Shown one piece after another: positions 1,384 to 13,064 of a stretch of DNA of 20,098 nt (the stretch's first letter is position 1; each line of letters begins with the position of its first letter). The notes below the pieces were generated by a model. That model was not told the origin of the DNA. It ran no database searches and was given only the letters and a program-made list of their open reading frames with translations. The position numbers and the translations under genes are program-made. The DNA comes from a virus: positions 1 to 20,098 of the IMG/VR virus record IMGVR_UViG_3300020009_000011. One strand, given 5' to 3'.

Positions 1384-1856
1384 TCCCCCCAAACTGGAAA
1401 CTCCGCTATAAAGAATCTTACGAGAAGTGGCAGCTAGTAGCTTACCAAGCAGCAAGCAGGGACTTCGGAACGTTACCAGTAAAATATCCAGATGTAACAA
1501 CCCACAACGGGCTTATCAATTTCATGTTGAACTTTTTAAAATGGAATAATCATAGAGCAACCAGGATAAATAATACAGGGCGGATTATTAGTTCTGTTAC
1601 CAAAGGCGAAGCTGGTGGTTACTTTAAAGATGTTAAGCGTATTACATCTTCTACTAGAAATGGGACTGCTGATGTGAGTGCTACGATATTAGGTAGGGCT
1701 GTCATGCTAGATGCAAAGGTTGGGAATGATAAGCCATCGCAGGCGCAATTAGGAGAGCAACAATTGGAGCGTAATAGTGGGGGTGTGTATGAGTTCATTT
1801 CACATCCCGATCAGTTTTTGGAATGGTATGATCAGTTTATATTATCTTTGAAGTGA
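1380..1856 (+). CDS. VRR-NUC-like PD-(D/E)XK nuclease
   Basis: A 158-residue protein whose C-terminal half has the VRR-NUC signature: GTAD (Asp98), then LDAK (Asp111, Lys113), then SQAQ (Gln121), followed by GGVYEFI. This fits the G-x-x-D ... (D/E)xK ... Q pattern of PD-(D/E)XK nucleases. Phage VRR-NUC proteins are usually small and are linked to replication-fork or Holliday-junction cleavage; that role is inferred from the family. The N-terminal 60 residues are not recognised. The middle Asp is in a D-A-K rather than E-x-K form, which the family tolerates. The start overlaps the upstream helicase-methylase stop by 4 bases (ATGA), and the gene sits in the replication block. Confidence 0.72.
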   Translation: MIPPNWKLRYKESYEKWQLVAYQAASRDFGTLPVKYPDVTTHNGLINFMLNFLKWNNHRATRINNTGRIISSVTKGEAGGYFKDVKRITSSTRNGTADVSATILGRAVMLDAKVGNDKPSQAQLGEQQLERNSGGVYEFISHPDQFLEWYDQFILSLK

Positions 1857-1858
1857 AT

Positions 1859-1939
1859 CACCATGTATTGGATAGGAGCTTTACATGGTGGTGGTGAATT
1901 TTATAATAGCCCCTGCGACACTCCTATGTCAATGGGGTT
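1859..1939 (+). terminator. Two stem-loops in the gap before the SLOG gene; terminator-like
   Basis: The gap starts with a perfect 9-bp stem, CACCATGTA (1859-1867) with TACATGGTG (1882-1890). A second hairpin follows: AGCCCC (1908-1913) pairs with GGGGTT (1934-1939), with an inner GACA/TGTC stem (1917-1920/1927-1930) and a six-base loop CTCCTA. It is followed by TTATTTTTCTT, so it could be an intrinsic terminator or attenuator. A 32-codon ORF (1863-1961) starts inside the first stem and is probably chance. Confidence 0.45.
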
Positions 1940-1951
1940 TATTTTTCTTCA

Positions 1952-5344: not shown

Positions 5345-5386
5345 CTTGTTTTCATAGATAAGGTTTAATGGTTTTTTGATAAGTAC

Positions 5387-5412
5387 AGTCCTGGAGTTTC
5401 TACTCTGGGACT
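5387..5412 (+). terminator. TTTCTA-loop hairpin 1
   Basis: A 10-bp stem (5387-5396 with 5403-5412) that includes two tandem G-T pairs, closed by the loop TTTCTA. It is followed by TATTGTAA, a weak U-rich tail. It lies 42 bases after the small terminase stop, so it could end the upstream transcript. Confidence 0.55.
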
Positions 5413-5426
5413 TATTGTAAATAAGA

Positions 5427-5448
5427 AAGCCGGGTAGAAACCCAGCTC
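5427..5448 (-). terminator. TTTCTA-loop hairpin 2 (reverse strand)
   Basis: On the - strand this is an 8-bp stem GAGCTGGG/CCCGGCTT around loop TTTCTA, followed by TCTTATTT. Two pairs are G-U on the - strand but A-C mismatches on +, so the element looks shaped for - strand RNA. It forms a back-to-back pair with hairpin 1. Confidence 0.45.
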
Positions 5449-5486
5449 GTTATCAAAACTAATTGTTATCCTATGAAAACAGACCT

Positions 5487-5502
5487 AACTGTAGAAACAG
5501 TC
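5487..5502 (-). terminator. TTTCTA-loop hairpin 3 (reverse strand, short)
   Basis: On the - strand GACTG and CAGTT pair (5 bp, outer pair G-U) around loop TTTCTA, followed by AGGTCTGTTTTC. The stem is short and the call is supported mainly by the shared loop and by the same bias toward the - strand as hairpin 2. Confidence 0.35.
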
Positions 5503-5591
5503 TGATCGAGAAATTGACTAGTGAATGGCTAAGATAAAAATAAATTTCATAATATCAGAATAATTATTTAGCTTAGTATTTCTAAACTGCA

Positions 5592-5691
5592 TTGTGCCGC
5601 AGATGATCAAAAAATATAACGATAATAAAGGTAGTACATTAACTGCGTCTCCATCTTCGGGTGACGGCGGCACAACTTTTAGTGTACTACC
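5592..5691 (+). ncRNA. Predicted pseudoknotted RNA element
   Basis: Two long pairings cross each other. Segment A TTGTGCCGC (5592-5600) pairs with GCGGCACAA (5667-5675). Segment B (5630-5640, GGTAGTACATT) pairs with 5681-5691 (10 Watson-Crick pairs and one G-U). Between B and A' lies a hairpin (5646-5666) with CGT/ACG, a 3-base bulge, and CATC/GGTG closed by a cUUCGg tetraloop; it abuts A' and could stack on it. The G-U pairs favour + strand RNA. A 34-codon ORF (5603-5707) spans almost the same bases, so the region could be a peptide gene, a leader controlling the gene at 5714, or a separate small RNA. Confidence 0.5.
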
Positions 5692-5707
5692 CTTACTATT
5701 AAAATAA
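5603..5707 (+). CDS. Possible 34-residue peptide inside the structured element
   Basis: The ATG at 5603 opens a frame for MIKKYNDNKGSTLTASPSSG and 14 further residues ending FSVLPLLLK. No recognisable domain or Shine-Dalgarno sequence is present. It ends 6 bases before the next start, which is in keeping with the packed + strand layout, but its sequence is constrained by the pseudoknot pairings, so the open frame may be chance. Confidence 0.3.
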   Translation: MIKKYNDNKGSTLTASPSSGDGGTTFSVLPLLLK

Positions 5708-5713
5708 TTTATT

Positions 5714-5931: not shown

Positions 5932-5953
5932 GGCTGGCGTTTCTACGCTGGCC
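5932..5953 (+). terminator. TTTCTA-loop hairpin 4; intrinsic terminator candidate
   Basis: An 8-bp GC-rich stem GGCTGGCG/CGCTGGCC with two tandem G-U pairs and loop TTTCTA, followed by TCAATTTTAAAA. It lies 29 bases after the stop at 5902. A competing hairpin, GAAACG (5927-5932) with CGTTTC (5938-5943), would use the same bases, which could allow a switch. Confidence 0.6.
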
Positions 5954-6372: not shown

Positions 6373-6394
6373 AAAAGGGATAGGTGGATTTTAC

Positions 6395-6416
6395 CCCCTG
6401 AATTTCTATTCGGGGG
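6395..6416 (+). terminator. TTTCTA-loop hairpin 5; intrinsic terminator candidate
   Basis: An 8-bp stem CCCCTGAA/TTCGGGGG with one G-U pair and loop TTTCTA, followed by CTTCTTTAAAA. It ends 20 bases before the first lipoprotein gene, so it separates the small-gene region from the accessory operon. Confidence 0.6.
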
Positions 6417-6435
6417 CTTCTTTAAAACTTATGTT

Positions 6436-10135: not shown

Positions 10136-11415
10136 CACAGGTAAAGCCCTTCCAAATACGAATGGATGAGCTACATCCAGGTCAGCAGAAAGTTATCAGA
10201 GAGAAACGAAGGTTCAATACACTGAAATGTGGCAGACGTTGGGGTAAAACTAAACTTTCTGAAGAGTTGTTGCTATCGCCTGAAGATAAAACCAACGGAG
10301 CGTTAAATGGGTTCCCAGTTGCTTACTTTGCACCAACGTATAAAATGCTTATGGATGTTTGGCGGGCAACGAATAATATAGTTTACGGGATTACAAAAAC
10401 TAAATCAGAAACAGAGAAGAGGATTGAATTAATATCTGGTGGAGTTATTGATTTCTGGAGCCTCGAAGACCCAAACAGTATTAGAGGTCGGAAATATAAA
10501 CGAGTAGTATTGGACGAGGTTGAAGTTGCCCGTAATCTTAAAGAAGGTTGGCAGAATGTTATACGTCCTACACTAACCGATATGAAAGGTGATGCATGGT
10601 TCTTGTCTACTCCCCGTTTTGGTTCAACTTATTTCAAACAACTTGCTAAGCAGAACGATCCAGAGTGGATGAATTGGGTTTTTACAACTTATGATAACCC
10701 GTTCTTAGATCCGGCTGAAATAGATTCTGCAAGGGCGCAGTTAGATGAATCAACTTTCCGGTGTGAGTTCTTAGCTGAAGATGTTACGTTGGCAGTTAAT
10801 AAGTTTATTTACAATTTCGATAGGTCAAAGCACGTTGTAAAAGGGTTGCAAGCTGACCCGAATTTACCAATCTTATTATCGTTCGACTTCAACACTGAAC
10901 CAATAGTTTGTTTAGTTGGGCAGTGTAGCGGATTGGATAAAGTTAGATTCTTAGATGAGTACCGGTTAATGAATAGCGATATTTACGAGATATGCAAACG
11001 GATATTATCCGACTATCCAGATAAACAATTATTAGTAACTGGTGATGCGAGTGGGCAGGCACGAACTGCACTGAAAAGGGATTTGAATTATTACAAAGTA
11101 ATTAAAGAAGTTTTGAAAATTGGAATGGGGCAATTTAAACTACCAGCGGCAAACCCTCGTATTCATAACACAAGAGTTTTATGTAATTCTTTACTTGGTC
11201 GGCATAAGGATTATTTATTTTCCGACAGAGTTAATTATCTTATCTTAGATATTGAAGAGTGTGAAACTGATTCGTCAGGCGGTATTGATAAAACTAAAGA
11301 TAAACATCAGTCGCACTTATTAGATGCGTGGAGATATTTTAACTGGACGTTCTTACATAAGTTTCTTGATCTGAAAATATATGACACCGACCTACAAAGC
11401 AACGGAAATACTTAG
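10132..11415 (+). CDS. Terminase large subunit
   Basis: A 427-residue packaging motor. The ATPase has Walker A CGRRWGKT (33-40), Walker B RVVLDE (Asp128, Glu129) and the coupling motif LSTP (158-161). The RNase H-like nuclease has SFDFN (Asp252), TGDASG (Asp305) and a late LLDAWRYF Asp. It translocates DNA into the prohead and cuts the concatemer. GTG at 10132 overlaps the upstream stop (GTGA); the ATG at 10162 would drop 10 residues. It is unusual for the preceding genes to be glycan enzymes and for no portal gene to follow. Confidence 0.93.
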   Translation: MTQVKPFQIRMDELHPGQQKVIREKRRFNTLKCGRRWGKTKLSEELLLSPEDKTNGALNGFPVAYFAPTYKMLMDVWRATNNIVYGITKTKSETEKRIELISGGVIDFWSLEDPNSIRGRKYKRVVLDEVEVARNLKEGWQNVIRPTLTDMKGDAWFLSTPRFGSTYFKQLAKQNDPEWMNWVFTTYDNPFLDPAEIDSARAQLDESTFRCEFLAEDVTLAVNKFIYNFDRSKHVVKGLQADPNLPILLSFDFNTEPIVCLVGQCSGLDKVRFLDEYRLMNSDIYEICKRILSDYPDKQLLVTGDASGQARTALKRDLNYYKVIKEVLKIGMGQFKLPAANPRIHNTRVLCNSLLGRHKDYLFSDRVNYLILDIEECETDSSGGIDKTKDKHQSHLLDAWRYFNWTFLHKFLDLKIYDTDLQSNGNT

Positions 11416-12471: not shown

Positions 12472-12490
12472 TAGCAAAAGGGTAGTAATT

Positions 12491-12535
12491 AGTTGCGAAA
12501 TTTCTTACATACCATAAAATTTAAATTTCGCAACT
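12491..12535. repeat. 13-bp inverted repeat with 19-base spacer
   Basis: AGTTGCGAAATTT (12491-12503) pairs exactly with AAATTTCGCAACT (12523-12535). It interrupts the left arm of the larger repeat and is flanked by TTA on both sides (12489-12491 and 12536-12538), as a small insertion with a 3-bp target duplication would be. It could equally be an operator. Confidence 0.6.
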
Positions 12536-12564
12536 TTACAGGGTCAGTATTAAAAATAATAAAT

Positions 12565-12747
12565 ATGAAAAAGATTCTTATAAGGCTGTTTTATGATAAA
12601 TCGCAGCGTTTGTTTCGTAAGTTTTTTACAACGAAACAAACTATTGGCCGTGAGCGTAGGCTTAAGACTCATCCGTTGGTTCTACATCTGGGAGCTTATC
12701 AACATCTGACAGAAGTTGATTCGAGATGTTTGTCAAGGCTATCTTAA
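12565..12747 (+). CDS. Doubtful 60-residue ORF
   Basis: ATG at 12565 gives a basic product (MKKILIRLFYDKSQRLFRKF...). Its second half overlaps the end of the opposite-strand gene and looks like an antisense reading, and a perfect palindrome (12608-12641) shapes its middle. No domain is seen. I list it only because the stretch has no better + strand gene. Confidence 0.2.
   Translation: MKKILIRLFYDKSQRLFRKFFTTKQTIGRERRLKTHPLVLHLGAYQHLTEVDSRCLSRLS
12608..12641. terminator. Perfect 11-bp palindrome, possible end of the reverse-strand gene
   Basis: GTTTGTTTCGT (12608-12618) pairs with ACGAAACAAAC (12631-12641) around a 12-base loop. It lies 20 bases past the stop of the - strand gene, where a terminator would be expected, but there is no U-run on that strand. 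Confidence 0.4.
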
Positions 12748-12877
12748 ATTCATCTCGACCCTTATCATCAGTTTCGTTATTATGCAGGCAATACCTGAAT
12801 AATAATTCTTCTATTAATAACTCCGTTCTTTTTAATGATATGTAAATATGTTGCAACTCAATTCTTTTTTCTCCCAT
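12662..12877 (-). CDS. Possible reverse-strand small gene (moron candidate)
   Basis: A 71-residue acidic, helical product (MGEKRIELQHIYISLKRTEL, ending LSDVDKLPDVEPTDES), read against all its neighbours. The amino-acid make-up is more protein-like than that of the overlapping + ORF. It sits wholly inside the inverted-repeat segment, with a hairpin after its stop. No domain is recognised. A lone reverse gene between chaperone and tape measure fits a moron, or a segment caught in one of two orientations. Confidence 0.45.
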   Translation of the reverse strand: MGEKRIELQHIYISLKRTELLIEELLFRYCLHNNETDDKGRDEFKIALTNISNQLLSDVDKLPDVEPTDES

Positions 12878-13064
12878 AATAATGATTCTTCATTGTGCGT
12901 TAGCCGTGCGCTGGCCTGACATTTATCATAAAATAATTATAACGAATCTTTTTCTCCTTGACCCTGTAATTACTACCCTTTTGCTAACGGTCCCATGCAT
13001 TTACTATTTTTTTATTATCTTTACCTAACGATTAGAGACAAACGGGAATTTTTCTTTAATCGCT

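Follow-up and report, generated by a model that had tools for sequence, protein, structure and literature searches.

Structured RNAs are usually discovered through conserved sequence. The fluoride riboswitch is a pseudoknot that controls a terminator, the loop of its 5' hairpin pairing downstream beside that terminator, and in the Pistol ribozyme a hairpin loop pairs into a second stem. Within phages, the messenger RNA of T4 gene 32 carries a pseudoknot that is bound by gp32, 67 nt upstream of that protein's own gene (PMC3014915). The putRNA of phage HK022 is a two-hairpin RNA of ~70 nt near an early phage promoter, where it acts on RNA polymerase (PMC9378689), and a third report describes STAXI as tandemly repeated pseudoknots and the c4 antisense RNA as an Rfam family (PMC2864571).

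The present analysis concerns leader RNAs in a viral window of 20,098 nt (the whole stretch analysed, positions 1 to 20,098 of IMG/VR record IMGVR_UViG_3300020009_000011), whose plan occurs in at least 19 sequence types in Bacteroidetes phages; the sequences differ and the fold recurs. That plan comprises, in order, a −7-like promoter box, a hairpin (P1), a linker, a stem (B) enclosing a segment (A') that pairs with the P1 loop (A), and a start codon. Unlike the fluoride riboswitch, the leader types have no conserved aptamer sequence, and A' lies in the loop of the predicted terminator, not in its stem; they resemble the Pistol ribozyme in loop size, but have neither an Rfam match nor a conserved core. 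Like the T4 gene 32 operator, they are pseudoknots in a phage 5' leader, upstream of an AU-rich start and in a replication context, whereas that operator serves one gene (PMC3014915) and the leaders head many unrelated first genes, pair loop to loop and usually include a predicted terminator. Two promoter-proximal stem-loops are present as in HK022 put, the promoter being assigned by consensus only; in contrast to the put RNAs, which share sequence with one another (PMC9378689), the two leader hairpins pair through their loops, and leader sequences are unrelated between types. Proximity to DNA-handling genes recalls STAXI, and a structured phage RNA recalls c4, but each leader in the regions read holds one pseudoknot, not a tandem array, and the leaders gave no Rfam c4 match.

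The preliminary description of this DNA could name no RNA family for the element, and a search of Rfam 15 at the gathering cut-off agrees, with 0 matches in the window and likewise 0 in 17 other loci and in the leaders of the phages Nekkels_1 and phi10:1; at E ≤ 10, only chance-level matches far below the cut-off appear. No report of such leaders was found in the literature searched, a search whose reach excluded most subscription papers.

Two leaders in the window

The late leader lies behind the small terminase gene (assigned by a PHROG match) and terminator-like hairpins, shortly 5' of a first gene that varies from phage to phage. Its parts are the following.

5569–5576, plus strand: −7-like promoter box TAGCTTAG, of the form TAnnTT[TA][GA], ending 10 nt before P1
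5587–5602, plus strand: hairpin P1, CTGC/GCAG with an 8-nt loop ATTGTGCC; in type II a U-A pair stands in place of C-G, a double change
5592–5600, plus strand: A, the 5' side of the loop pairing, at most 9 bp, 7 of which can form alongside P1; 3/7 compatible pairs changed on both sides, 0 broken
5603–5704, plus strand: leader reading frame of 34 codons across the fold, with no protein family match
5603–5629, plus strand: A-rich linker from P1 to stem B, 27 nt here versus 15–17 in most types
5630–5642, plus strand: B, 5' strand of stem B; of 13 pairs, 3 with double changes, 3 with one-sided changes, 0 broken
5646–5666, plus strand: hairpin C within stem B; double changes in 2/7 pairs
5667–5675, plus strand: A', 3' strand of the loop pairing, from the covariation count
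5679–5691, plus strand: B', 3' strand of stem B, with no U-tract after it, from the covariation count and element table

Both of the pairings that the preliminary description had proposed are present: A joins 5592–5600 (TTGTGCCGC) to 5667–5675 (GCGGCACAA) through 9 Watson-Crick pairs, B joins 5630–5640 to 5681–5691 through 11 pairs (one of them G-U), and the two cross in the order A-B-A'-B', as had been claimed. Stem B is longer than first stated, with 13 pairs (5630–5642/5679–5691), and hairpin C, also noted earlier, has 3 + 4 bp, a bulge of 3 nt and a UUCG loop, and ends one base before A'. Overlooked at that stage was P1 (5587–5590/5599–5602, 4 bp), the loop of which is A; the 5599–5600 end of A therefore competes with P1, so that the P1-compatible form of A is the 7-bp pairing 5592–5598/5669–5675, with seven bases of the loop paired and one unpaired. 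The nested minimum-energy fold of the late leader already holds B and hairpin C (−33.5 kcal/mol, z −2.9).

Homologues of the late leader were found by two DNA patterns in 7 other viral contigs. Six of the eight leaders, including that of the window, are nearly identical (type I), with flanks ~75% alike where compared, and the other two, in L083 and L007, constitute type II. Pairing A, TTGTGCC/GGCACAA in type I, is TCGTATC/GATACGA in type II; B is GGTAGTACATT/AGTGTACTACC in the former and TCCGGTACATT/AGTGTGCCGGG in the latter. Across the 8 contigs a 31-pair structure is retained in full (248/248 cells paired, 0 broken, both partners altered in 9 pairs), and no shifted register of it pairs nearly as well; this covariation rests on two sequence classes, I and II, so that the change events are few, each of them compensatory or wobble. 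The alignment of homologous intergenic regions that had been suggested as a check thus finds both stems covarying, in support of a pseudoknotted RNA, and the outcome that would have spoken against it, a 34-residue peptide kept while the stems are lost, did not occur, since types I and II keep stems and frame alike. At the same place, L082 and L092 carry a leader of unrelated sequence and the same plan (type III), with base pairs of B exchanged between the two.

The surroundings of the late leader hold further features. The region from the small terminase to the p62 gene (window 5345–5713; L082, L089, L090, L092) is a hot spot whose cargo immediately after the leader, methyltransferase-like and other small genes, differs among otherwise similar phages. 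Hairpins between genes at window 5387–5412, 5429–5446, 5932–5953 and 6394–6417 have different stems and a common six-base loop, TTTCTA (TAGAAA on the other strand); such hairpins also occur in related phages, and some have T runs behind them on the minus strand, which would suit terminators with a preferred loop. Elsewhere in the window, a stretch of ~515 bp (12472–12986), with a perfect inverted repeat of 20 bp (TAGCAAAAGGGTAGTAATTA) at its ends and situated just before a tape-measure-like gene, looks like a small inserted element.

A second leader in the window, missed by the preliminary description, occupies 1857–1949, before the gene at 1952; its sequence is unrelated and its plan the same. 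The parts of this early leader (type V) are listed with its promoter box.

1843–1850, plus strand: −7 box TATCTTTG, overlapping the end of the upstream gene
1857–1892, plus strand: P1, ATCACCATGTA/TACATGGTGGT, the loop of which holds A
1872–1878, plus strand: A, ATAGGAG; A-U to G-C double change in L147
1908–1913, plus strand: B, AGCCCC, from the upstream scan and covariation
1921–1927, plus strand: A', CTCCTAT, from the scan and covariation
1934–1949, plus strand: B', GGGGTT, and the U-rich tract TATTTTTCTT, before the gene at 1952

The late leader is atypical in that it has no U-tract and a 34-codon frame runs through its fold, and control there is for these reasons possibly translational. 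The frame, possibly a translated one with coupling to the gene that follows, differs between types I and II in 20 codons (13 non-synonymous, 7 synonymous; dN/dS 0.38, from few sites), overlaps the next gene by ATGA in L002, L007, L083 and L090, and is fused to it in frame in L008; types XI and XII, as read from their sequences, have frames of 40 and 34 codons that also stop at the next gene's start (ATGA). These observations, with the keeping of the type I/II frame in contigs that carry the leader, would fit a leader peptide with translational coupling, whereby ribosomes reading through the fold would reinitiate at the overlapping start codon, the pseudoknot setting the efficiency. We regard this as distinctly unlikely, because in L147, compared with the window, the type V fold is kept and covaries while the leader frame is destroyed (ATG TAA), so that the peptide is not the common denominator of the leaders; moreover, no comparable whole-leader frame was seen on reading the sequences of types III, IV, VI, VII and X, and types I and II are two sequence classes only.

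Chance expectation and recurrence in other phages

Crossing pairings were scored by their stacking sum in kcal/mol, on which scale the late leader reaches −40.9. With P1 required, the two best matches on the plus strand of the window are the late leader and 1858–1971; the whole-window scan is not specific, as whole-window shuffles also reach −41 to −48, and scanning was consequently restricted to upstream regions. There, the earlier assertion that such crossings exceed chance was borne out, with 11 cases at ≤ −36 kcal/mol versus 0.2 per shuffled set (705 upstream regions, 17 contigs). The scan with P1, for a hairpin loop that pairs into a stem ending just 5' of a start codon, found 20 versus 0.3 expected at ≤ −36 (656 regions, 14 contigs), a count that takes close homologues separately (for example, five type I copies) and in which G007 7801, G005 541 and G005 15876 were scored, these three being left out as leaders. 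A strict pattern with a U-tract gave 18 versus 0.33 shuffled in 286 regions and 13 versus 0 in 644 regions, and no excess in 1032 regions of other phages (3 versus 4.0) or 380 regions of named phages (1 versus 1). Phages with more distant small-terminase relatives (L009–L081) likewise show no excess, at 3 versus 1.3 for ≤ −36 and 3 versus 4.0 for the strict pattern. A candidate before a ParB gene (PJN03) passed the strict pattern, but its p of 0.48 in the plain crossing test led to its omission from the leader count.

Strong stems by themselves can be products of chance, and shuffles of the whole window reach similar sums; nevertheless, that the leaders reflect chance, a DNA-level palindrome or a packaging site is scarcely credible, given the crossing compensatory changes, the occurrence at one place in many phages and the U-tract on one side only. 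The packaging signal entertained in the preliminary description finds no support, the same plan being present where early operons begin and ahead of methyltransferase-like genes and those for primase and helicase. Its alternative of a riboswitch-like leader came near the mark in position and anatomy, but not in respect of conserved aptamer nucleotides, which the members do not share.

Besides the operons and gene classes just named, leaders of the plan precede small genes, and the first genes behind them differ (p62, a SLOG-family protein, primase/helicase); types XI and XII were found only once P1 was no longer required. Twenty-five loci were fetched via the protein encoded just 5' of the early leaders, for which 'VRR-NUC' is a working name only (a Pfam scan of two members gave no match). 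Crossing stems stand directly after this early gene in 23 of 24 sources, including the window (each p ≤ 0.01 versus 200 shuffles), and a score of −30 is reached there in 22/24, versus 8/122 other gene ends of the same loci; these counts leave out L151, whose locus stops at that gene, and take in redundant contigs (7 of 23 loci had been seen before, and some pairs are near-identical), so that the independent cases are fewer, about 13 sequence types. In L144 the crossing leader lies two genes further on instead; in L152 none was found, and with L152 counted 23 of 25 sources are positive after the early gene. The leader is absent behind bacterial homologues of the early gene, where 0 of 5 cases were significant (one homologue having an E-value of only 1e-6). 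A collection of bacterial and archaeal genomes yielded a single distant TerL relative, in a Bacteroidetes MAG; 50,697 phage records held no DNA similarity to 4 kb of the window, and the named phages no close relatives of two early-gene proteins.

Double changes, with no pair broken, were also counted in other types: 3 in IV/IV', 2 in XIV (a count that omits hairpin C), 1 in V and 2 in III. Among near relatives, compensatory changes in A separate L135 from L143/L145, the window from L147, and G002 from G007, and hairpin C is swapped outright among L135, L143 and L145. In the cultured Cellulophaga phages phi10:1 and Nekkels_1, leaders lie between a methyltransferase gene and the gene that follows, where a common promoter stretch precedes unrelated leaders, each with crossing stems and a U-tract (p 0/300 each); the phi10:1 leader is at about 10255–10340 of NC_021802, and phi19:1 is 99% the same as phi10:1. 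The pair phi10:1 and Nekkels_1 is the clearest case among isolates of the same place and the same fold with a new sequence. The Nekkels_1 leader (L117 45055–45195) possibly has two loop pairings, GTCTAAC/GTTAGAC and, by eye, ATTGGAA/TTCCAAT.

An anatomy table of 29 elements (whose automatic assignment of A/B in types V and X, and of P1 in VIII, X, XI and XII, departs from the anatomy reported here) indicates that the types share plan and lengths and no common sequence, some loop bases recurring within IV/IV' and VI. The P1 loop is mostly 6–10 nt (longer in type V), the linker in most types 15–17 nt (type III has 8, I/II have 27, and XVI has up to 31) and stem B 6–20 bp, A' being reached 0–17 nt before B'; in types XIV–XVI hairpin C adjoins B directly, with A' forming a bulge, whereas elsewhere A' lies in a larger loop. 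At least six U in the 8 nt after B occur in 18/29 elements versus 1.6% of comparable windows; types I/II, X, XI and XII have no U-tract after B. In 17/19 types and 30/33 elements (background 4–5%), a −7 box, of the form that we take to be the Bacteroidetes −7 element, is separated by no more than 16 nt from the first paired base downstream; the proportion is 17/20 types if type IX (L005 5813), left out of that count and showing no box, is included. In the type X leader (G001 22137–22250, L004 1782–1892), a second copy of A (AGCGGCACC / AGCGACACC) touches the start codon, and could pair with A' and shut the start.

These boxes place the predicted RNA start 3–15 nt before the fold, an arrangement that would suit a compact terminal pseudoknot shielding the mRNA from decay and exposing an AU-rich start, with the U-tract as ribosome entry region. 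Such a steric role would permit a sequence-free, conserved architecture and would accommodate late types I/II, with no U-tract; we nonetheless think it unlikely, as 6–7 U right after a strong stem, at the frequency above, is more than an AU-rich start needs.

Proposed working of the leaders

Fold, covariation, recurrence and position are established by comparison of sequences, and the crossing structure very likely exists; to judge from the promoter boxes only, the leader likely lies at the 5' end of its transcript. We infer a transcription start beside P1, termination at B, and a switch and its direction. The best reading, to which we would give an even chance, is that the leaders are cis-acting, promoter-proximal kissing-loop attenuators of phage operons, and for attenuation itself the odds are about even.

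With a U-tract after it in most members, B would be an intrinsic terminator there, making the leader an attenuator whose terminator docks onto a promoter-proximal hairpin. The combination expected of an intrinsic-terminator attenuator, a stable stem and U-tract in a leader before the first gene, is found in 18/29 elements and not in type I/II. The P1 loop (A) would pair with A', held in a loop or bulge of stem B, which ends just 5' of the first start codon. As polymerase leaves the promoter, P1 would emerge, then A', and A-A' would form before B' is made; the speed with which B closes, on top of or instead of A-A', would then set the proportion of short terminated RNA to read-through, and a protein, a trans RNA or a ribosome holding P1 would tip the balance. 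For the late leader, where B has no U-tract, the same fold acting on translation of the first gene or on 5'-end stability may be favoured.

When transcripts are truncated right after A', A-A' is part of the best nested fold in 9/10 leaders tried; adding B' turns that fold into P1 plus B. In typical members A-A' shares no bases with P1 or B, so that all three can coexist as a kissing pseudoknot; for the same reason, and unlike in classical mutually exclusive attenuators, docking could do no more than stabilise the terminator or the mRNA. Termination, moreover, cannot be the job common to types I/II, X, XI and XII, as these have no U-tract.

A promoter-proximal two-hairpin RNA, with terminator-like hairpins recurring between genes downstream, might also recall the processive antitermination of HK022 put, with the folded nascent RNA travelling on RNA polymerase past those terminators. 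This seems quite improbable, since many leaders themselves end in a terminator-like stem, and since leader sequences are unrelated between types, whereas both put RNAs share sequence similarity (PMC9378689).

The diversity of the kissing loops raises two further ideas. Phages P4 and P1 provide a precedent for RNA immunity, in which manner the terminated leader RNA of a resident phage would pair in trans with the leader of an incoming relative, the loops setting specificity. Kissing loops that vary in sequence on an unchanging fold, placed where early operons begin, would accord with this, but among near relatives the A pairs show no clear excess of variation over the B pairs, and trans RNA and lysogeny are only hypothetical here; we hold it to be very improbable. 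A broader, rather improbable conjecture is a sequence-free, swappable RNA gate: Bacteroidetes phages would start each major operon with a cassette of promoter and kissing-hairpin terminator in which only fold and spacing matter, and loop pairs would drift or be swapped so that leader RNAs recognise their own kind only, allowing self-specific control or RNA-based exclusion of relatives.

Meaning for Bacteroidetes phages

The leaders are cis-acting leader RNAs, and as such known in kind; what sets them apart is a plan kept without sequence. An architecture that persists at set positions in the genome through the replacement of its sequence is missed by sequence-based searches and by Rfam, and the kissing-hairpin leaders point to a way of gating phage genes that is unrecorded in the literature searched. 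Since the same plan is present in cultured Cellulophaga phages, it is open to experiment now, and the leaders offer concrete, testable RNA switches for Bacteroidetes phages.
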